A stretch of 64,000 nt of DNA from an uncultured Pseudomonadota bacterium (GTDB taxonomy: Bacteria; Pseudomonadota; Gammaproteobacteria; Steroidobacterales; Steroidobacteraceae): NCBI GenBank assembly GCA_903927005.1, contig CAIYLH010000115.1, positions 1 to 64,000 of the forward strand. The letters are read 5' to 3'. Positions 1-9,081 of the stretch are shown one piece after another. Both the position numbers and the translations under genes were made by a program. The notes below the pieces were generated by a model. The model was not told the origin of the DNA. It searched no databases and was given only the letters and a program-made list of their open reading frames with translations. Position 1 is the first letter of the stretch. Every line of letters begins with the position of its first letter.

Positions 1-76
1 AGAAATTGCCCAGTTCGTACAGATATCGCGCGATCCACTGCAGCCCGGCAACGCGCGCGGCATGAGCCCTAAACAC
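1..76 (-). CDS. 5' end of an unidentified gene leaving the window
   Basis: A reading frame opens with GTG at 76-74 on the minus strand and runs off the left edge, giving 25 residues that begin MFRAHAARVAGL and continue through an aromatic stretch, WIARYLYELG. An AAGGAG ribosome binding site lies nine bases upstream of the GTG, which is the main reason to believe it. The family is not recognisable from so little. It sits directly downstream of the HigB-like toxin, where a higA antitoxin would be expected, but the visible residues do not look like a HigA helix-turn-helix. Confidence 0.35.
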   Translation of the reverse strand, partial: MFRAHAARVAGLQWIARYLYELGNF

Positions 77-172
77 TTGGTCGCAGCTCCTTGTGCTAGC
101 GCAACTGTCGCAGCGGGGTCAGCGCGTCCCTGCGCTTCCGTCGCGCTCATCGAAACTCCGAACACATTAGTG

Positions 173-448
173 CTAGTCGACGATTTCGACATCGACCGCA
201 TCTGTTCCATCCCATCGAAAGCACAAGCGAAACTGATCGTTGATCCGAACACTCCACTGGCCGACCCTCTGGCCCTTCAGGGGCTCGAGTCGATTCCCTG
301 GCGGGGCACGCATATCCTCGATACGACGCGCCACATCCCACTGCTTGAGCTTGCGCAGCGCGGGACGTTCGATATGAAGCCAGCGAGCCACACGCCGAAG
401 CCCGAAAATAGCCTCGGTATCACGACACTTGAACGCCTTGATCGCCAC
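173..448 (-). CDS. higB: HigB/RelE-superfamily toxin, probably orphaned
   Basis: This is a 91-residue protein of the RelE/HigB superfamily, whose members are ribosome-dependent mRNA interferases. The family pattern is clear: IKAFKCRDTEAIF at the N-terminus, PPGNRLEPLKG in the middle, and WSVRINDQFRLCFRW followed by DAVDVEIVD at the end. Start is GTG at 448 or TTG at 451; neither has a good ribosome binding site. Family members usually end VEIVDYH; here GAC is followed by TAG and then CAC TAA, so a single TAC-to-TAG change could have removed the last two residues. No helix-turn-helix antitoxin follows on the minus strand, although higA normally lies immediately downstream. It is therefore a solitary or decaying toxin gene. 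Confidence 0.75.
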   Translation of the reverse strand: MAIKAFKCRDTEAIFGLRRVARWLHIERPALRKLKQWDVARRIEDMRAPPGNRLEPLKGQRVGQWSVRINDQFRLCFRWDGTDAVDVEIVD

Positions 449-459
449 CAAAAAAATAT

Positions 460-480
460 TAACGGTCTTCGTTATTAACG
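460..480. promoter_or_regulatory. Candidate operator upstream of the higB-like gene
   Basis: Three copies of the half-site TAACG/CGTTA occur within 21 bases: TAACG at 460-464, CGTTA at 470-474 and TAACG at 476-480. The last two form a perfect inverted repeat around one base. The block lies just upstream of the toxin start, where toxin-antitoxin autoregulators bind. A weak promoter (TTGCGT, 17 bases, AATATT) can be drawn through it on the minus strand. Binding by a HigA-like protein is inference only. Confidence 0.35.
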
Positions 481-837
481 CAACATGACCCTATCGCCGA
501 GGAGGGATTTCTTAAACCCGCCCCTAGCGCGAGCGGCACGCGCTGCCGCCGCCCGCTCGGAAGACATGACGTCGCAAGACCTTGCGGCCGTTTCGGCCAG
601 AAGATCGCCCAGCGGTGCACTTACGGCCCTGCGGCAAGCGGGAATTGCCGGCAATCTACCCGGCCCCGCGCAAGGCGCCCAATCGCTTTAGCCGCCTTGA
701 CGGTAGGCCCGGCTCGGCCGGCTTGAACGACAGCCCACGCAGGCGCGCCGATGAGTGCTAGTTTGTAGGGCTTGCCCGCCACGGGTCTCGTCCAATCCCC
801 CCCTGCACCCGATCATCCTTAAGCACGCGGAATACCC
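481..837. other. Intergenic region without a recognised gene
   Basis: About 350 bases lie between the toxin gene and the STAS gene. Short frames exist (for example 485-691), but they are rich in Ala, Arg and Pro, lack a ribosome binding site and resemble no family I know. The promoter for the downstream module should be here, but no convincing -35/-10 pair is visible. Confidence 0.5.
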
Positions 838-1125
838 ATGCCAGTCGTCGTTGCCAAGTACCAGCCCGTCGGTCGCTTTGACGCCTCCACGGCCGCACAG
901 CACGAAGCGGAATTGCGGCGACTGCTGGACGGCGAGGCACAGTCGATAGAACTGGATTTTTCCAAAATAGAATTCCTCAGCAGCGCCGGGCTACGGGTGC
1001 TGCTGGTCACGGCCAGCGCGGCGGAAAAGAAAGGGGGCACGCTGCAACTGAGCGGTGCGCGGCCCGCCATCCGCGAAATCATCCTGACCGTCGGCTTCGA
1101 CGATATCGTGCACCTGCGGGACTGA
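838..1125 (+). CDS. Single-domain STAS protein, anti-sigma-factor antagonist type
   Basis: This is a 95-residue stand-alone STAS domain, the SpoIIAA/RsbV fold. Antagonists of this class bind a GHKL-type partner when unphosphorylated and release it when a conserved serine is phosphorylated. The loop FLSSAGLRVLL (about residues 42-52) matches the canonical phosphoacceptor loop (usually DSSGL), and the serine is retained. The following segment GGTLQLSGARPAIREIILTV is typical of the last helix-strand. The stop at 1125 is followed by the permease start at 1127, so the two are almost certainly co-transcribed. Its neighbours supply the other two parts of a partner switch: a GHKL-like domain fused to a permease, and a SpoIIE phosphatase expected to dephosphorylate this serine. 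No sigma factor is nearby. Confidence 0.85.
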   Translation: MPVVVAKYQPVGRFDASTAAQHEAELRRLLDGEAQSIELDFSKIEFLSSAGLRVLLVTASAAEKKGGTLQLSGARPAIREIILTVGFDDIVHLRD

Positions 1126-1126
1126 C

Positions 1127-2833
1127 ATGAAACCCACCACCCTGACCTATGGCGTCGACGACACACCGCCGCTGCTGGAGCTCGCCTCGCTGGGACTGCA
1201 GCAGGTGCTCATGGGCGCTGCAGGCTGGGTGATGATGGCAACCGTACTGGCTACGCTGTCGGTCTCGCTGCTCGACACGCAGAGCATGCTGCGCATGGGC
1301 ATGATCGTGACCGGACTGGGGGCGATGTTGCAGGCCAATCGACGCGGCCCGGTGGGCTCAGGCTACCTGTGCCCACCCATCATTGCGCCTGCGTTCTTCT
1401 CCACCACGATCCTTGCCGGTGGCGGCTTTGGCCTGGCCACCCTGTTCGGCATGACCACGGTGGCCGGCGCCATCGAAGTGGTGCTGGCGCGGCTGTTGCC
1501 GCGCATCAGATTTCTGTTTCCGCCCGAGGTGATCGGTGTGGTCATGGTCATGGTGGGCATCGCGGTCCTGCCTACCGGCTTTCCCCGGCTGTTGGCGGAC
1601 CCCGCCACCTTGAGTGCCGGCGCCGATCAGGGCCGCAACGTCGCGGTTGGGATCGTTACGCTGGCGACCATGACCGGCTGCACCGTCTGGGGACGCGGGC
1701 TGGTGAAGCTGCTGCCGCTGCTCGTCGGAATCTTCACCGGCGTTGCCGCGGCGCTGGCCCTGGGCTGCGTACCGCCGACGGCTTTGCCGTCGATCATGAA
1801 TGAGCCGTGGATCGGTTGGCCTCACCGCGCGGTCTCCGGCTTTGCGTTTGAATGGTCGCTACTGCTGCCTTTCACCATCGCCTGCGTCGCCTCATCACTC
1901 AAGAACGTCGGCGACCTGACGATGTGCCAGAAGATCAACGACTCGGACTGGAAACGCACCGACATGGCGTCGGTCAGCCGCGGCGCCAGCGTGCTGGGCA
2001 TCGTCAATATAGCGTCCGGCCTGCTCGGCACGGTGAGCCACAACGCCTCCTCAAGTAACATCGGACTGGCTGTCGCCAGCGGCGCCACCAGCCGCAGCAT
2101 CGCCTACAGCTTCGGCGCGCTGATGGTGCTGTGCGCTTTTCTGCCCAAGGTGGCGGCCACCATCACCGCGCTGCCGCCGCCGATCACCGGCGCCGCCGTG
2201 ATCTACTGCGCCTGCTTCATGATGCTGGCCGGCATACAGTTGCTGACTTCGCGACTGCTCGACACCCGTCGCATCCTGATGGCGGGCTGCGCGCTGGCGT
2301 TCGGCCTCAGTGCGGGCCTCATGCCGCATCTGTATGTGAACGCGCCGCATTTCCTGAAGCCCATTCTGAACTCACCGGTCTCGTTCAGCGCTCTCGTCGC
2401 GCTGGTGCTGAACTACCTCATGCAGCTGGGCAACACTCGACGCTGCCGCCTAACGCTGACAGCAGCCGAAGACAATTACGCCACCCTGCGCGACGCGATG
2501 CTGGAGTTCGGCGCCTCAGTCGGCGCCCGCAAAGAGGCCATCACCGCGGCTACCGAGTCGCTGCACCACGTCATGGAATCGCTGGCCACGGGCCTGGCAA
2601 GCGGCGAGATTACGGTCGATATCGCCTTCGACGAATACCATCTGGACCTCGATGTGTCCTACCAGGGACAGGCGATCGAACTGGTGAAGACGCGCCCGGA
2701 TCGCAACACCTTGCTGAACGACCCGACGGGACTGGCCAAACTCTCCGGCTGGCTGCTGGGCCAACGTGCCGACCGGGTACGCATCAAGACGGATGCAGAT
2801 CGCTGCCACGTGCTGCTGCGACTGACGAATTAA
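1127..2833 (+). CDS. NCS2-type permease fused to a C-terminal GHKL/RsbW-like domain
   Basis: This 568-residue protein has two parts. Residues about 20-435 form a polytopic membrane region with NCS2 (xanthine/uracil permease) hallmarks, including RRGPVGSGYLCPP near residue 72 and a KNVGDLT motif near residue 258. Residues about 445-568 are soluble and resemble an anti-sigma-factor ATPase domain: ATESLHHVMESL sits where the N-box lies, followed by beta-rich DEYHLDLDVSYQGQ and a helix near TGLAKLSGWLLG. In NCS2 carriers such as UraA an acidic residue precedes the (I/V)GD motif and another lies near TM10; here the first is Lys, and the second region reads SSSNIGLA. In the ATPase part the usual N-box Asn is not seen. 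Both halves may therefore be non-canonical, sensing or tethering rather than transporting or phosphorylating. It sits between STAS and SpoIIE-phosphatase genes. Confidence 0.75.
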   Translation: MKPTTLTYGVDDTPPLLELASLGLQQVLMGAAGWVMMATVLATLSVSLLDTQSMLRMGMIVTGLGAMLQANRRGPVGSGYLCPPIIAPAFFSTTILAGGGFGLATLFGMTTVAGAIEVVLARLLPRIRFLFPPEVIGVVMVMVGIAVLPTGFPRLLADPATLSAGADQGRNVAVGIVTLATMTGCTVWGRGLVKLLPLLVGIFTGVAAALALGCVPPTALPSIMNEPWIGWPHRAVSGFAFEWSLLLPFTIACVASSLKNVGDLTMCQKINDSDWKRTDMASVSRGASVLGIVNIASGLLGTVSHNASSSNIGLAVASGATSRSIAYSFGALMVLCAFLPKVAATITALPPPITGAAVIYCACFMMLAGIQLLTSRLLDTRRILMAGCALAFGLSAGLMPHLYVNAPHFLKPILNSPVSFSALVALVLNYLMQLGNTRRCRLTLTAAEDNYATLRDAMLEFGASVGARKEAITAATESLHHVMESLATGLASGEITVDIAFDEYHLDLDVSYQGQAIELVKTRPDRNTLLNDPTGLAKLSGWLLGQRADRVRIKTDADRCHVLLRLTN

Positions 2834-2845
2834 CACCAGCAGGCC

Positions 2846-4297
2846 ATGCCAAACACGTTGCATCGATGGATTCCTGACTGGCTGGTCGAGTCCCGTCATC
2901 TGGCCGAAGCCTCCGCGGACGAGCAAGCGATGCTCGTGGCACGACGACAGCAAGCCAACCAATCCCTGGCGCCCTATATCGGACTGGCACTCCTCCTCCT
3001 GTCGCCTTTCCTGCTGCTGCTTGACGCCCAACGACTCCAACCCGGGCTAGTCGTTCTTGGACTGACTGGCGACTATTACCTGATTGGCGCCGCCTGCCAC
3101 GTCCTGCTGACCCTGAGTGCCCTGCCGGCCCTGGCCATAAAATATCGGCGCGTTGCTGCGAATCAGCGCCTGAGCGCGCGCTTGCTCAAGCTACACCTGT
3201 ACAGTTTCTTCACGGCACTGCTGGTGCTGTCCTTGGTCACCATCCTGGCGCGCGGTGCATTCATGCGCATAGCCTGTCTGTTGGTCGTGACAAATTTCGT
3301 CTACGTCGTGCAGTGGCGCTTACGCGCTGCGATCAATGCCATCTCGTTCGTGGCCGGCACCGCCCTGATCTTCACCTTTGCAGCGCTCGGGGGAGCCCCG
3401 CGGCTGGAGCATTTCGTGGACCTGCTGACGCTGGTCGTCCTGTGTGTCATTGGTGGCGCCATTGTCCATCGCGACCGGAAACTGGGTTGCCAAGCCCAGT
3501 ATCGGGAATCGCGACACCTGAGCCGGTTGCAGGACGAGCTCAACGTCGCCGCGAAGCTGCAGCAAGCGCTGCTGCCAAGTCCGTGGCCTGCAACGGCGGC
3601 CTTTGCGGTTCATGGGATGATGCGGCCGGCACAGGACATCGGCGGTGACTTTTATGATCACTTCCACTTCCAGGATGGTGGCGTGTGCCTGGTCGTGGCG
3701 GATGTCTGTGGCAAAGGCGTTCCCGCCGGACTGTTCGGCATGTCTGCCAAGAGTGTCCTGCATACCACGGCGCTGCAGCTACCCCGGGGCGTCGCGGGCA
3801 GCGACGCCGGCGCGCTGGTCGCAGACGCCAACAACCTGCTGCACCAAGGCAACACGGAGATGCTGTTCGTGACCGCCGTGTATGCCCACTACCAGCCCGC
3901 AACCGGTGCGCTGTCGTTCGTCAACGCCGGTCACGTGCAGCCGCTGCTCATCCCCCGCCGCGGCCCGCCGCGCTGGCTGGACGCTCCCAAGGGCCGGGCG
4001 CTAGGCGCGCGTGGACAACAGCGCTATGCGGCGGCGGACGTAGCGCTGCAGGCCGGTGACACGGTCCTGCTCATCACCGATGGCATCACCGAAGCGCACG
4101 ATGCGAACTTGCAGGAGTTTGGCCTCGCGCGCGTGAAAGAGACCTTTGAGGGGGTGGTTTGCGGCGGACCACAGGCGTGTGTCAACCGTTTGCTGACGGC
4201 GGTGGATGCCTTTACGCACGGCCTGGCGCAAGCCGATGACATCACCTGCATTGCCCTGTGCCACCGGCCGGAGGCCGCGGAGGGATGCCCTGCATAA
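2846..4297 (+). CDS. Membrane-anchored SpoIIE/PP2C-type serine phosphatase
   Basis: The protein has 483 residues. The N-terminal part holds several hydrophobic segments between about residues 45 and 205, followed by a short coiled linker (LQDELNVAAKLQQALLP, typical of SpoIIE/RsbU/RsbP enzymes). The C-terminal part, about 235-475, is a PP2C catalytic domain with the metal-binding acids in place: DIGGDFYD, VVADVCGKGVPAG, LLITDGITEA and QADDIT. Such enzymes remove phosphate from STAS antagonists and so reset a partner switch. The gene starts 12 bases after the permease-GHKL gene and the module is one strand, so the STAS protein encoded first is the likely substrate. The membrane segments could relay a signal from the envelope or from the neighbouring permease, which is inference. 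Confidence 0.87.
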   Translation: MPNTLHRWIPDWLVESRHLAEASADEQAMLVARRQQANQSLAPYIGLALLLLSPFLLLLDAQRLQPGLVVLGLTGDYYLIGAACHVLLTLSALPALAIKYRRVAANQRLSARLLKLHLYSFFTALLVLSLVTILARGAFMRIACLLVVTNFVYVVQWRLRAAINAISFVAGTALIFTFAALGGAPRLEHFVDLLTLVVLCVIGGAIVHRDRKLGCQAQYRESRHLSRLQDELNVAAKLQQALLPSPWPATAAFAVHGMMRPAQDIGGDFYDHFHFQDGGVCLVVADVCGKGVPAGLFGMSAKSVLHTTALQLPRGVAGSDAGALVADANNLLHQGNTEMLFVTAVYAHYQPATGALSFVNAGHVQPLLIPRRGPPRWLDAPKGRALGARGQQRYAAADVALQAGDTVLLITDGITEAHDANLQEFGLARVKETFEGVVCGGPQACVNRLLTAVDAFTHGLAQADDITCIALCHRPEAAEGCPA

Positions 4298-4391
4298 AGT
4301 CGTGGCAAGCTTGCTTGCCTGGACGTGCTACCGAGGCGGCCAGGCGGTACTCCCGGTCTAAATGACGACGAAAAACCGGGGTGACGTCAGC

Positions 4392-4416
4392 AAAAAGCCC
4401 GCAAGGTGCTGGGCTC
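4392..4416 (-). terminator. Possible rho-independent terminator of tRNA-Ser
   Basis: Reading the minus strand downstream of the tRNA, AGCCC, a ten-base loop and GGGCT are followed by five T. The stem is short, but position and orientation fit termination of the tRNA transcript. Confidence 0.45.
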
Positions 4417-4459
4417 TGAACGCCTTCGAGGCTGCCCAGCGGGTTCGAAGGTCTTGTTC

Positions 4460-4549
4460 TGGCGGTGGGGGTGGGATTCGAACCCACGGAAGGCGTTAAC
4501 CTTCGCTAGTTTTCAAGACTAGAGCCTTAAACCGCTCGGCCACCCCACC
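4460..4549 (-). tRNA. tRNA-Ser(UGA)
   Basis: A 90-base class II tRNA. The acceptor stem GGTGGGG pairs with CCCCACC, discriminator G is followed by an encoded CCA, and the T arm is GTGGG-TTCGAAT-CCCAC. The anticodon arm CTAGT-CTTGAAA-ACTAG carries anticodon TGA, which reads UCA and other UCN serine codons. An extended variable arm (GCGAAGG...CCTTCC region) confirms serine. The gene for seryl-tRNA synthetase lies about 1 kb away on the same strand, though BI-1 on the opposite strand separates them. Confidence 0.96.
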
Positions 4550-4642
4550 AGCGCGTCGTCCGCGGAGCGGAACTTTACCGGACTGAGACGGTCTGTGCGT
4601 GACAGACCGCATCGCCCACCCATCGTAACCCGGCCGATGCAG

Positions 4643-4648
4643 TATAAT
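4643..4648 (+). promoter_or_regulatory. -10 element (TATAAT) of the Bax-inhibitor gene
   Basis: A perfect TATAAT lies 31 bases ahead of the chosen start codon, with an AGGAG ribosome binding site at 4665-4669 between them. The -35 region at normal spacing is poor, so the promoter may rely on the strong -10. Confidence 0.6.
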
Positions 4649-4678
4649 CGCGCCTTCAATTCTTCAGGAGATGCCTGC

Positions 4679-5368
4679 ATGGACCGCCCTGGCGACCGAA
4701 TCGTCATCGAAGGCAGCGCGACGCGCGTCGGCGCCGCCGCCACCAGCAGCAGCGCCCAGCGCGTGCTGCGCAACACCTACATGCTGCTATCAGCCTCATT
4801 GCTGTGGAGCGCGGCCTGCGCCGGCGGCGCGATGGCCTATCGCCTGCCCGGCCCCGGCATCCTGCTGACGCTGGTCGGCTTCTACGGGCTGCTGTTCGCG
4901 ATCGAGCGGCTACGCAACAGCGCCTGGAGCGTTGCCCTCGTATTCGCCCTGACCGGCTTCATGGGCTACACGCTCGGCCCCGTGCTCAGCTACTACATGC
5001 GCTCGGTGCCGGACGGCGGCTCAGTGATCATGCTGGCCTTCGGCATCACCGGCGCGGCGTTCCTGTCGCTGTCGGCCTATGCGGTGACCACCCGCCGCGA
5101 CTTCAGCTTCATGACCAGCTTCCTGGTGGTCGGCTCGATCACGGCGTTCCTGCTGGGGCTGGTGGCGATCTTCTTCCACATGCCGGGCCTGTCACTGGCG
5201 GTATCGGGGCTGTTCACGCTGATCTCGAGCGGGATCATCCTGTGGCAGACCGGACAGATCGTGAACGGCGGCGAGACGAACTACGTCTCGGCGACCGTGA
5301 CGCTGTACGTCAGCATCTACAACCTGTTCGTCAGCCTACTGCGGCTCCTCGGCGGCTCGCGCAGCTAA
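4679..5368 (+). CDS. Bax inhibitor-1 / YccA-family membrane protein
   Basis: The protein has 229 residues and seven or so hydrophobic segments spread from about residue 35 to the C-terminus, with the family motifs GYTLGPVLSYY and ISSGIILWQTGQIVNGGE near the end. Bacterial BI-1 proteins (YccA/YbhL type) are inner-membrane proteins; YccA modulates the FtsH protease, and homologues behave as pH-dependent calcium leak channels. The start is ATG at 4679 because AGGAG lies nine bases upstream and a TATAAT promoter precedes it; the frame stays open further upstream but lacks those signals. The gene is monocistronic and ends in a strong terminator. Confidence 0.9.
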   Translation: MDRPGDRIVIEGSATRVGAAATSSSAQRVLRNTYMLLSASLLWSAACAGGAMAYRLPGPGILLTLVGFYGLLFAIERLRNSAWSVALVFALTGFMGYTLGPVLSYYMRSVPDGGSVIMLAFGITGAAFLSLSAYAVTTRRDFSFMTSFLVVGSITAFLLGLVAIFFHMPGLSLAVSGLFTLISSGIILWQTGQIVNGGETNYVSATVTLYVSIYNLFVSLLRLLGGSRS

Positions 5369-5392
5369 CGCGCGGCTCATCGCTACGCACTG

Positions 5393-5426
5393 CGCCCCCG
5401 TCTGGGATCCGGACGGGGGCGTTTTT
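5393..5426 (+). terminator. Rho-independent terminator after the Bax-inhibitor gene
   Basis: A ten-base GC-rich stem (CGCCCCCGTC with GACGGGGGCG) closes a short loop and is followed by TTTTT. It lies between the plus-strand BI-1 gene and the minus-strand serS gene and ends the former. The T run is on the plus strand only. Confidence 0.9.
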
Positions 5427-5439
5427 CATGGCGAGGCGT

Positions 5440-6753
<1,314 letters not shown>

Positions 6754-8040
6754 TCAGGCGCCGCCGCCACGCCGGCGGGCGATGGCTTCGCGGATCTTGA
6801 TCTCCAGTCCCCGCGGGACAGGATTGTAATAGGTGCGCGGCTCCATCTCCTCGGGGAAATATCGCTGGCCGGCCGCGTGCGCGTCGGGCTGGTCGTGGTC
6901 GTAGCGGTAACCCGCGCCGTGACCGAGCTCCTTCATCGTCCGAGTCGGGGCATTGCGGATCGCCATCGGCACCGGCAACGAGCCGAGCGCCTCGGCGTCG
7001 GCGCGGGCCGCCTTGTAGGCGGTATAGACCGCGTTGCTCTTGGGTGCCACCGCCAGATAGACGACCGCCTGGCCGATCGCCAGCTCTCCCTCCGGACTGC
7101 CGAGCCGCTCGTAGGTCGCCAGCGCGTCCACCGCGAGCGACAGTGCGCGCGGGTCGGCATTGCCAATATCCTCGCTCGCCATCCGCAGCACCCGCCGTGC
7201 GACGTAGAGCGGGTCGCAGCCGCCATCGAGCATCCGGCACAGCCAGTACAGCGCCGCATCAGCGTCGCTGCCGCGCACCGACTTGTGCAGCGCCGACATC
7301 TGGTCGTAGAAGGCATCGCCGCGCTTGTCGAAGCGCCGGCTGCCGCCGCTCGCCACCTCCGCCGCGATCGCCTCGCTAATCATGCCGCTGCTGGCCAGAT
7401 CCGCGGCGATCTCCAGCAGGTTCATCGCCCGGCGCGCGTCGCCGTCAGCCGCTCGCGCGATCAACTCGCGCGCCGCCGGCTCAATCGACAGCCCCTGCTC
7501 GCCCAGTCCACGCTCAGCGTCGCCGAGCGCGCGGTCGATCAGCAATTCGAGGTCAGCCGCAATGAGGCTCTTAAGTACGTAGATGCGCGCCCGCGACAGC
7601 AGCGCGCCGTTGACCTCGAACGACGGGTTCTCGGTGGTCGCACCAACGAACACCAGCGTGCCGTCCTCGACGAACGGCAGGAACGTGTCCTGCTGGGCAC
7701 GGTTGAAGCGGTGCACCTCGTCCAGGAACAGCACCGTAGAGGCGCCGCTGGCGGCGCGGGCGGTGCGCGCCTTCTCCACCACCTCGCGGATATCCTTGAC
7801 CCCGGCGAGCACGGCCGACAGGGAGTAGAACTCGGCCTTGGCGGAGACCGCGACCAACCGCGCCAGCGTGGTCTTGCCGGTGCCCGGCGGCCCCCACAGC
7901 AGCATCGAGTGCAGGGTCGAGCCCTCGACCAGGCGCCGCAGCGGCTTGCCGGCGGCCAGCAGGTGCGCCTGGCCTGCAAACTCGTCAAGCGAGCGCGGGC
8001 GCATCCGGTCAGCCAGCGGGCGGTAGGGTTCGGTGCTCAC
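6754..8040 (-). CDS. rarA: Replication-associated recombination protein A, AAA+ ATPase
   Basis: RarA (MgsA) acts at stalled replication forks and is related to clamp loader subunits and WRNIP1. The 428-residue protein starts at GTG 8040 (VSTEPYRPLADRMRP), the family's normal N-terminus; the frame continues upstream to 8412 but that part overlaps the VanZ-like gene and is not family sequence. Walker A GPPGTGKTT is at about residues 50-58, Walker B is VLFLDEVHRF, and sensor 1 is VGATTENPSFE. The C-terminal tetramerisation domain includes GCDPLYVARR and NAPTRTMKELG. The ftsK-lolA-rarA-serS order is conserved in gammaproteobacteria. Confidence 0.96.
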   Translation of the reverse strand: MSTEPYRPLADRMRPRSLDEFAGQAHLLAAGKPLRRLVEGSTLHSMLLWGPPGTGKTTLARLVAVSAKAEFYSLSAVLAGVKDIREVVEKARTARAASGASTVLFLDEVHRFNRAQQDTFLPFVEDGTLVFVGATTENPSFEVNGALLSRARIYVLKSLIAADLELLIDRALGDAERGLGEQGLSIEPAARELIARAADGDARRAMNLLEIAADLASSGMISEAIAAEVASGGSRRFDKRGDAFYDQMSALHKSVRGSDADAALYWLCRMLDGGCDPLYVARRVLRMASEDIGNADPRALSLAVDALATYERLGSPEGELAIGQAVVYLAVAPKSNAVYTAYKAARADAEALGSLPVPMAIRNAPTRTMKELGHGAGYRYDHDQPDAHAAGQRYFPEEMEPRTYYNPVPRGLEIKIREAIARRRGGGA

Positions 8041-8066
8041 GTGAGCATTGTAGCGGCCGGCAACGC

Positions 8067-8453
8067 TCAGCGCGGGGCAAGGCCCAGCAGACGCTCGACC
8101 CGTGCGGCCCAGCCGCCGAGTCCGGCATAGGCCAGCGCGAGCGCGAGCGCGACGCCGACCGCGTTCGCGCAGGCGTCGGCAAGCTCCGCGGTGCGCGTCG
8201 GGGTCAGCGCCTGCAGGCCTTCGATGCAGACCCCCAGCAACACGCAGGCCGTGCCGATGAGGAGGTAGCGGCGGCGCGGGTAGAAACCGGTGAACCAACT
8301 CGCCAGCAGGAAGTAACCGGTCGCGTGCTGGATCTTGTCCCAGACCTGCACCGGCAGCGGCACGCCGCCCGGCCACAGACTCAGCACCAGTCCGGCGAGC
8401 ACCCCGGCCCAACCGACCGCGGCCCAGAACCGTCCCAGGCGCAGTGGCAGCAT
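8067..8453 (-). CDS. VanZ-like membrane protein
   Basis: A 128-residue protein with four hydrophobic stretches and the VanZ-family pattern: DKIQHATGYFLLASWF in the first third, then EGLQALTPTRTAELADACANAVG, the last part matching the R-x-x-x-x-D-xx-aN-x-x-G signature. VanZ confers low-level teicoplanin resistance in enterococci; the role of the many chromosomal relatives is unknown. The stop of lolA and this start nearly coincide (TGACATG), so it is translated as part of the ftsK operon. Its presence between lolA and rarA departs from the most common order. Confidence 0.85.
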   Translation of the reverse strand: MLPLRLGRFWAAVGWAGVLAGLVLSLWPGGVPLPVQVWDKIQHATGYFLLASWFTGFYPRRRYLLIGTACVLLGVCIEGLQALTPTRTAELADACANAVGVALALALAYAGLGGWAARVERLLGLAPR

Positions 8454-8454
8454 G

Positions 8455-9081
8455 TCAGCGCGCCGAGCCGATCACGTCCACGCCAGCCGGCGGCGTGAAC
8501 CTGAACAGCGCATCGGCCAGATGCGCATTGCGCTCTAGGCCCTTCAGCTCAATCAGCGTGCGCTGGTTCAGCTTGTCGGTGAACTCGAGCCGATGCAGCA
8601 CCTCGCCGACGAAGCCGAGCCGAATCTCGCGAAAATCGGTGTCACTGGCCTTGGGCACGAGGTGCAGCCAGTCAAGCCCGCCGCTGCGGCCGCCGTCGCG
8701 GATCGTGAACCCGTCACGCACCTTCGCCTGGCCCGACAGCAGCATCGCCGGCGTCTGCGACATTGAGTCGCGCACGCGACGCACCGTCGCCTGCTCCAGT
8801 TCCGGGTCATACAGCCACAAGCGCTCGCCGTCGCAGACGATCAGCTGCTTTGGCGTCGCGTAGTCCCAGCGGAACCGACCGGGTTTCTTCAGGTAGAGCG
8901 TGCCGGCAGCGTGGTCGGTGGACGTGCCATCAGCGGCAACCAGATCCTGGGTGAATTCAGCGCGGACCGAGTCCAGCGCCGTGAGCGCATGCTCAAGGCG
9001 TGTCGCAGGATCCACTTCGGCGGCTGGCGCCGGCAGCGCAAACAGAACGCACAGCAGCAACGACAGATGAGCCCGCAGCAT
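8455..9081 (-). CDS. lolA: Periplasmic lipoprotein carrier LolA
   Basis: LolA takes lipoproteins from the LolCDE transporter and carries them across the periplasm to LolB. The 208-residue precursor has a signal peptide (LRAHLSLLLCVLFALPAPA, cleavage near residue 22) and the family's half-barrel motifs such as VRAEFTQDLV, KPGRFRWDYATPKQLIVCDG and LWLYDPELEQATVRRV. ATG 9081 was chosen because it begins the signal peptide and follows the ftsK stop at 9086; longer frames overlap ftsK. The inner-membrane partners lolC, lolE and lolD are at 59.5-62.7 kb in this window. Confidence 0.95.
   Translation of the reverse strand: MLRAHLSLLLCVLFALPAPAAEVDPATRLEHALTALDSVRAEFTQDLVAADGTSTDHAAGTLYLKKPGRFRWDYATPKQLIVCDGERLWLYDPELEQATVRRVRDSMSQTPAMLLSGQAKVRDGFTIRDGGRSGGLDWLHLVPKASDTDFREIRLGFVGEVLHRLEFTDKLNQRTLIELKGLERNAHLADALFRFTPPAGVDVIGSAR

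Follow-up and report, generated by a model that had tools for sequence, protein, structure and literature searches.

The stretch of DNA analysed here, referred to as the window, comprises 64,000 nucleotides of contig CAIYLH010000115.1, which belongs to the 3.99 Mb genome assembly of an uncultured member of the Steroidobacteraceae. At positions 838-4297 it carries three consecutive plus-strand open reading frames (ORFs), separated by one and then by 12 bases, that code for a STAS protein, a permease of the NCS2/SLC23 family and a SpoIIE-type phosphatase (Table 1); ORF analysis and Pfam matches agree with the genes, order and gaps claimed in a prediction made from the sequence alone (hereafter the original prediction). 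The second ORF continues beyond the permease domain for another 132 residues, and as judged from profile comparisons and a structural model this tail is truly a relative of RsbW in fold, but it lacks the residues of the ATP site. Located between genes for an apparently intact STAS protein and an apparently intact phosphatase, it suggests an apparently undescribed way in which a transporter may be wired to a phosphorylation switch.

Table 1. Features of the three-gene operon in the window
Feature	Position	Strand	Remarks
Single-domain STAS protein (RsbV/SpoIIAA-like), 95 residues	838..1125	+	S49 at the phosphoacceptor position, FLSSAGLRVLL
NCS2/SLC23 permease domain, residues 1-436 of the 568-residue ORF 1127-2833	1127..2434	+	
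Tail with RsbW/SpoIIAB-like GHKL fold, residues 437-568 and stop codon; pseudo-RsbW, ATP-site residues lost	2435..2833	+	Profile and structure comparison
SpoIIE/RsbU-type PP2C phosphatase, 483 residues	2846..4297	+	Catalytic domain, residues 277-473

With respect to the two genes on either side of the permease gene, the STAS protein matches the Pfam families STAS_2 (PF13466; 52.3 bits, E = 6.4e-14) and STAS (PF01740; 51.3 bits), and S49 in its FLSSAG motif can be matched by that motif to Ser56 of RsbV, an equivalence for which we take the motif of the B. subtilis protein as the standard. In B. subtilis, Ser56 is the phosphoacceptor of RsbV (excerpt of PMC7340262). The single STAS protein with an intact phosphoacceptor serine that had been predicted is thus present, with S49 lying in SSAG, and a serine at this position is kept in all nine permease-linked STAS sequences, including that of locus L151. 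In the phosphatase, which matches SpoIIE (PF07228) with 135.8 bits (E = 2.3e-39) over positions 2-191 of the 192 in the model, four Asp motifs can be recognised by eye (DIGGDFYD, VADVCGKG, ITDGITE and ADDIT) that we take to be the carriers of the metal-binding acids. Its N-terminal part is hydrophobic, again by eye, so that the description as a membrane SpoIIE phosphatase with all metal-binding acids is borne out as well.

By itself the tail is without a family match: permease residues 437-568 gave none above cut-off in Pfam or NCBIfam, and single-sequence searches of Pfam, NCBIfam and the Protein Data Bank (PDB) with the tail returned no GHKL match, so that its GHKL nature had to be judged from profile and structure evidence. 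When 33 tails were compared by hhalign with 11 RsbW proteins, the two profiles aligned over 130 columns with a probability of 97.4% (E = 9.5e-12), and with 97.8% when 46 tails were used. The set of 46 holds one tail per gene, repeat short loci (among L002-L008, L014-L019, L046-L078 and L131-L144) not being recounted; the plain RsbW loci L083, L087, L097 and L098 are excluded, and the plasmid tails L178-L180 as well as two divergent tails, L202 and L204, stand outside it. A profile of 15 tails also retrieved four plain HATPase_c_2 proteins (E = 2.8e-5 to 7.4e-4), all above the Pfam cut-off, with a STAS gene nearby in three and a SpoIIE gene nearby in three of the four loci, and amongst PDB sequences the best match of the tail profile was B. 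subtilis RsbW, a weak one (E = 0.034). The gathering score of HATPase_c_2 (PF13581) is not reached by the tails, there being no match for the window, weak ones for two of 15 tails (best E = 0.028) and matches below the cut-off for the plasmid tails L178 (E = 0.021) and L180 (E = 0.0098); nor did the window permease match any histidine-kinase family in Pfam or NCBIfam. An AlphaFold model of the tail, built on four closely related sequences (that of the window and three relatives), reached a mean pLDDT of 90 and a pTM of 0.82 in the best of five (mean pLDDT of all five: 90, 84, 71, 57 and 57). With this model, Foldseek placed SpoIIAB, RsbW and UsfX/anti-sigmaF complex entries at PDB ranks 1-18 (E = 1e-6 to 1.1e-4, query TM 0.61-0.76; match descriptions are per PDB entry), followed at ranks 19-22 by LvrC of Leptospira and the RsbU-RsbW protein Rv1364c. 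The match of the C-terminal residues to the GHKL fold, which the original prediction had named as a check, was thus recovered in profile as well as in structure; the claim of a GHKL/RsbW-like domain fused to the permease stands as far as the RsbW fold is concerned, but not with respect to an intact GHKL ATPase.

In the merged alignment, the N-box Asn is present in all 11 RsbWs but in none of the 46 tails, and the same is true for the D-box Asp, in place of which the tails hold Tyr (27), His (9), Trp (7), Phe (2) or Pro (1); GGxG, likewise found in 11 of 11 RsbWs, is retained in a single tail. At the N-box Glu column 33 tails have Glu, nine have Gln, three (the window's clade) have His and one has Leu; a family-wide loss of this Glu was therefore rejected. 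A register-free scan found E...N within a 50-residue zone in five and a D-box-like pattern in two of the 46 tails, which are taken as chance matches or partial remnants, against 11 of 11 RsbWs for E...N, D-box and GGxG each. The N-box helix can be aligned in two registers, one helix turn apart, neither of which gives the window tail Glu and Asn together. On the missing N-box Asn, D-box Asp and GGxG, the reading of the tail as an intact kinase was rejected; judged from its sequence the tail is a pseudo-RsbW that is very unlikely to use ATP. An active 'GHKL' switch kinase is not supported by this comparison: because the ATP-site residues are absent, a kinase cycle run by the tail itself is unlikely, which would still allow for capture of a STAS protein without catalysis.

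The separate RsbW-like proteins encoded in the clusters of L089, L044 and a Thiodictyon syntrophicum plasmid all retain N-box, D-box and GGxG. Those of L146 (9290-9703, minus strand) and L148 (1239-1652, plus strand), which score above the HATPase_c_2 cut-off with 57.5 and 61.1 bits, respectively, keep the N-box Asn and GGxG and have Tyr (as Tyr-Gly) in place of the D-box Asp, as do most tails; that substitution alone is therefore no proof that ATP binding has been lost.

A lack of this neighbourhood in relatives had been set beforehand as a refuting outcome, but the order STAS, permease, SpoIIE was found to be identical at loci L009 and L010 of two further species, the permeases of which are 70% and 82% identical to that of the window. 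At all three loci STAS lies upstream on the permease strand, SpoIIE lies downstream and the cluster is without an RsbW. Within the stretches covered, the flanking ORFs of at least 100 codons gave no pairwise blastp match at 1e-6, the left flank of the window consisting of just 837 bases in this comparison; a triad embedded in unmatched flanks in three species is therefore not a matter of chance. Three partial contigs (L011, L012 and L013) fit the triad as far as each extends.

Altogether, a STAS gene adjoins the permease gene in nine of the 46 cases, i.e., in the window, L009, L010, L044, L089, L086, L146, L148 and L151, and the arrangement varies. At L044 the order is permease, STAS, RsbW, with the only SpoIIE gene of that genome about 4.5 kb away on the other strand, and at L089 it is response-regulator SpoIIE, RsbW, STAS, permease. 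The STAS gene is divergent in L086, L146, L148 and L151, of which L146 and L148 also encode, within 5 kb, a SpoIIE as well as an RsbW-like protein, and L086 and L151 show no separate RsbW in the stretch covered. On a permease tree of 48 rows (the 46 tail genes and the tail-less NCS2 genes of L154 and L030), STAS linkage requires at least four changes, gains or losses, a count in which L151, the permease piece of which was cut too long, is labelled as STAS-linked. On the T. syntrophicum plasmid, two complete tail permeases plus a fragment are followed by a STAS protein, a substrate-binding protein, a SpoIIE that has Cache and HAMP domains, and the HATPase_c_2 protein mentioned above. By contrast, none of 19 control loci with a total of 20 tail-less NCS2 genes has a STAS, RsbW or SpoIIE gene within about 5 kb on each side.

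Some further arrangements were observed at these loci. The fragment on the plasmid (L179, 10070-10591, plus strand) consists of the last helix and the tail, lies just ahead of the STAS gene and is either a decayed permease or a stand-alone membrane-anchored tail. At L039 (1744-2913, plus strand) a STAS domain is fused to an APH-type phosphotransferase domain 1.2 kb from a tail-bearing NCS2 gene. Pairs of tail-bearing NCS2 genes occur at L043 (3287-7042, convergent), L086 (4304-9479, same strand) and L179 (3719-7728, divergent), and such paired permeases perhaps form heterodimers.

As to the kinase of such a switch, no match to a separate RsbW was found in positions 1-9000 of the window, and none of the 12 PF13581 matches of the genome (at E = 0.001) lies on the window contig. 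In each of the genomes of the window, L009 and L010, however, a single HATPase_c_2 protein reaches E <= 1e-8, on another contig; that of the window genome (contig C84) has its own STAS gene alongside and would be the likeliest kinase acting in trans on the window STAS protein. The predicted absence of a separate soluble anti-sigma factor therefore holds for the cluster in the window's clade (and for L086 and L151 within the stretch covered), but not for L089, L044, L146, L148 and the Thiodictyon plasmid, and within the window's clade not for the genomes as a whole.

The permease domain matches Xan_ur_permease (PF00860) with 150 bits (E = 9.8e-44; residues 19-396, model positions 3-383 of 389), its best NCBIfam match, TIGR03173 (pbuX), stays under the cut-off of that family, and its nearest solved structure is UraA (E = 1.2e-13). 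An alignment to UraA, which took the place of a NAT signature scan with too loose a pattern, shows the substrate residues E241, H245 and E290 to be replaced by K259, D263 and S310, respectively; Glu occurs at the E290 column in none of the 48 members of the permease group (46 with a tail, two without), and the E241 column has Glu in three and Asp in 16 of them. In UraA, a triple Ala mutant of these three substrate-site residues has served as a transport-negative control (excerpt of PMC11362169). Near the relative on an Azospirillum plasmid, genes for a guanine deaminase and a urate hydroxylase are found on the opposite strand, and near the Thiodictyon cluster there are genes for subunits of the xanthine dehydrogenase family; these plasmid neighbours give a hint at purine-like compounds as substrate. 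A full-length AF2 model of the permease, made with three sequences, had a mean pLDDT of 37.

In comparison with known systems, the operon resembles the RsbU/V/W and SpoIIE/SpoIIAA/SpoIIAB switches in combining a STAS protein with a serine at the phosphoacceptor position, a PP2C phosphatase and an RsbW-fold domain, but here the RsbW fold forms a transporter's tail, which is devoid of the ATP-site residues. With the NCS2/SLC23 permeases UraA, UapA and PbuX it shares the PF00860 domain but not the UraA residues named above, and the SLC23 family is said to have no carboxy-terminal domains (excerpt of PMC6497670). SulP/SLC26 transporters have a related 7+7 architecture and a cytoplasmic C-terminal domain from the repertoire of partner switches; there, however, the transporter bears the STAS domain itself, whereas that of the window bears the RsbW-like partner and has STAS as a separate ORF. 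Histidine kinases have a GHKL fold, and the SLC5-STAC-histidine kinases CbrA and CrbS, as far as excerpts describe them, likewise combine a transporter domain with a C-terminal GHKL-fold domain, but they belong to the SLC5 family and are active histidine kinases, in contrast to a PF00860 domain joined to an RsbW relative without an ATP site. In MlaFEDB, to our knowledge, the STAS protein binds an ABC ATPase and there is no SpoIIE phosphatase switch. The likeness to that complex, an ABC transporter under regulation by MlaB, lies in a small STAS protein (MlaB) docked on the cytoplasmic part of a transporter (excerpt of PMC7367683). Amongst the matches listed from the open-licence literature, no title or opening of an abstract describes an RsbW-like tail on an NCS2 protein.

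The gene anatomy, the fold, the loss of ATP-site residues, the intact serine and phosphatase motifs and the recurrent linkage have direct support, and the reading that we favour on their basis, with a probability of roughly 0.4, is that an NCS2-fold transporter is linked to a STAS switch through a non-catalytic docking tail, with STAS controlling transport. The degenerate RsbW tail would offer a docking site to the operon's STAS protein, whose S49 would be dephosphorylated by the membrane SpoIIE enzyme on a signal of the latter's own and rephosphorylated by an RsbW kinase, which other lineages encode within the cluster and which in the window genome is probably the C84 protein. Unphosphorylated STAS might then dock on the tail of the permease, which is probably a dimer, and alter transport in a similar manner as the fused STAS domain does in the structurally related SLC26/SulP transporters. 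SLC23 and SLC26 have their architecture in common, and SLC26 transport is impaired when the STAS domain is deleted (excerpt of PMC6497670). A direction from switch to transport is favoured, with the receptor reading discussed below close behind, since the tail is hardly a kinase, a membrane phosphatase in the operon already provides an input and SLC26 needs its STAS. If STAS does dock on the tail, the locus would represent a simple and separable system for STAS control of a 7+7 transporter, and the anti-sigma kinase fold would have been recycled as a non-catalytic adaptor.

Several observations weigh against control of transport by a docked STAS protein. In 37 of the 46 cases no STAS gene adjoins the tail permease (some stretches end at a contig edge), and the tail may therefore do a job that needs no STAS; the test of linkage carries little weight (9 of 46 against 0 of 20; Fisher p = 0.03, kinship being ignored), and three further long NCS2 loci are likewise without a STAS gene. 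In B. subtilis, Glu49 of RsbW contacts Ser56 of RsbV, other hydrogen bonds being made by R23, D42, K44/S48 and Y118 (excerpt of PMC7340262). The window residues aligned to R23, D42, K44, S48, E49 and Y118 are R, A, T, H, H and W, respectively, so that of the RsbV-touching residues just R23 and an aromatic residue at Y118 are retained; 35 of 46 tails have Arg at the D42 position, which speaks against canonical docking, and the contact Glu, although kept in 33 tails, is His in the window's clade. With these residues so poorly kept, docking of STAS, if it occurs, would have to differ from unchanged RsbV-RsbW contacts.

Alternatively, information might flow in the opposite direction, in that a ligand of the permease, or transport itself, changes the tail, which would sequester or release unphosphorylated STAS acting on the unlinked RsbW or another target. 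This proposal comes near the view of the original prediction, needs no phosphorylation by the tail and is in line with the existence of transporter-receptors with C-terminal signalling domains (CbrA and CrbS, from excerpts), with the presence of a separate RsbW that could receive the STAS signal and with the replaced UraA residues, which could signify a receptor; as the phosphatase with its own membrane part already serves as input and 37 of 46 tail permeases have no STAS gene beside them, it is rather unlikely. Somewhat unlikely is the existence of transporter-receptors as a widespread class, with a dead RsbW-type tail on an NCS2-fold permease that captures or releases STAS according to ligand or transport state; such a class would put transporter and phosphorylation switch in direct mutual communication, as a mirror image of SLC26, and would amount to a 'pseudokinase' use of the anti-sigma fold.

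More doubtful still is that a former RsbW has been reused purely for dimerisation or stability of the permease, with STAS and SpoIIE serving another target and their linkage being incidental. The many tail permeases without adjacent STAS leave room for this explanation, as do the poorly retained STAS contacts, and RsbW dimerises via alpha1/beta1 (excerpt of PMC7340262), SLC23 proteins being dimers, too (excerpt of PMC6497670). Against it stand STAS linkage at four places on the permease tree and in the plasmid case, and a triad conserved in three species with unrelated flanks. The notion that the tail works as a kinase through an unusual ATP site, which would turn the triad into a complete three-gene RsbU/V/W system, could appeal to the RsbW fold, to a window cluster without another RsbW, to a Glu at the catalytic position in 33 tails and to the L146 and L148 proteins as examples that a missing D-box Asp need not by itself be fatal; yet with N-box Asn and D-box Asp missing from all 46 tails, GGxG from 45 of them and the Glu replaced by His in the window's clade, it is highly improbable.

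With a first, narrow profile, 3 of 398 genomes of the phylum yielded tail permeases; in one other class they occur in 11 of 240 genomes (13 matched, of which G656 and G762 have plain RsbWs only), in the window's family in 8 of 80 and in two orders in 2 of 18 and 9 of 199 genomes, respectively, these overlapping samples giving lower bounds for prevalence. Within the window's genus, 10 of 17 NCS2 places in 15 genomes have a frame of at least 564 residues, and all 10 carry the tail. A second, more RsbW-like NCS2 tail, missed by the tail profile, was recognised by eye at L202 (4517-6397, minus strand) and L204 (4483-6273, minus strand); that of L204 matches the RsbW profile with E = 0.0012, that of L202 is not listed at the 0.001 level, and in both the N-box Asn has apparently been lost too (EEALLFLL, by eye). 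In the long NCS2 frame of L203 no tail was seen. The tail domain is easily missed in annotation, tail-bearing relatives in three named plasmid records being described just as 'solute carrier family 23 protein'. The record of L010 (CAMAXE010000014.1) is titled as a Klebsiella pneumoniae metagenome-assembled genome (MAG), a label that looks wrong since its permease shares 82% identity with the window permease and the other relatives of the latter are titled Gammaproteobacteria MAGs.

In the surroundings of the operon, scans for promoters and terminators gave a signal no higher than that of shuffled sequence, and no sigma factor came to notice next to these genes, no search having been aimed at one or at another RsbW output. 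A gene for a HigB/RelE-type toxin (PF05015, 53.7 bits) is located close to the contig edge at 173-451 on the minus strand, and directly beyond the operon lies a tRNA gene at 4463-4549, also on the minus strand (RF00005, 59.8 bits), which is the sole match in the window to reach an Rfam gathering score.

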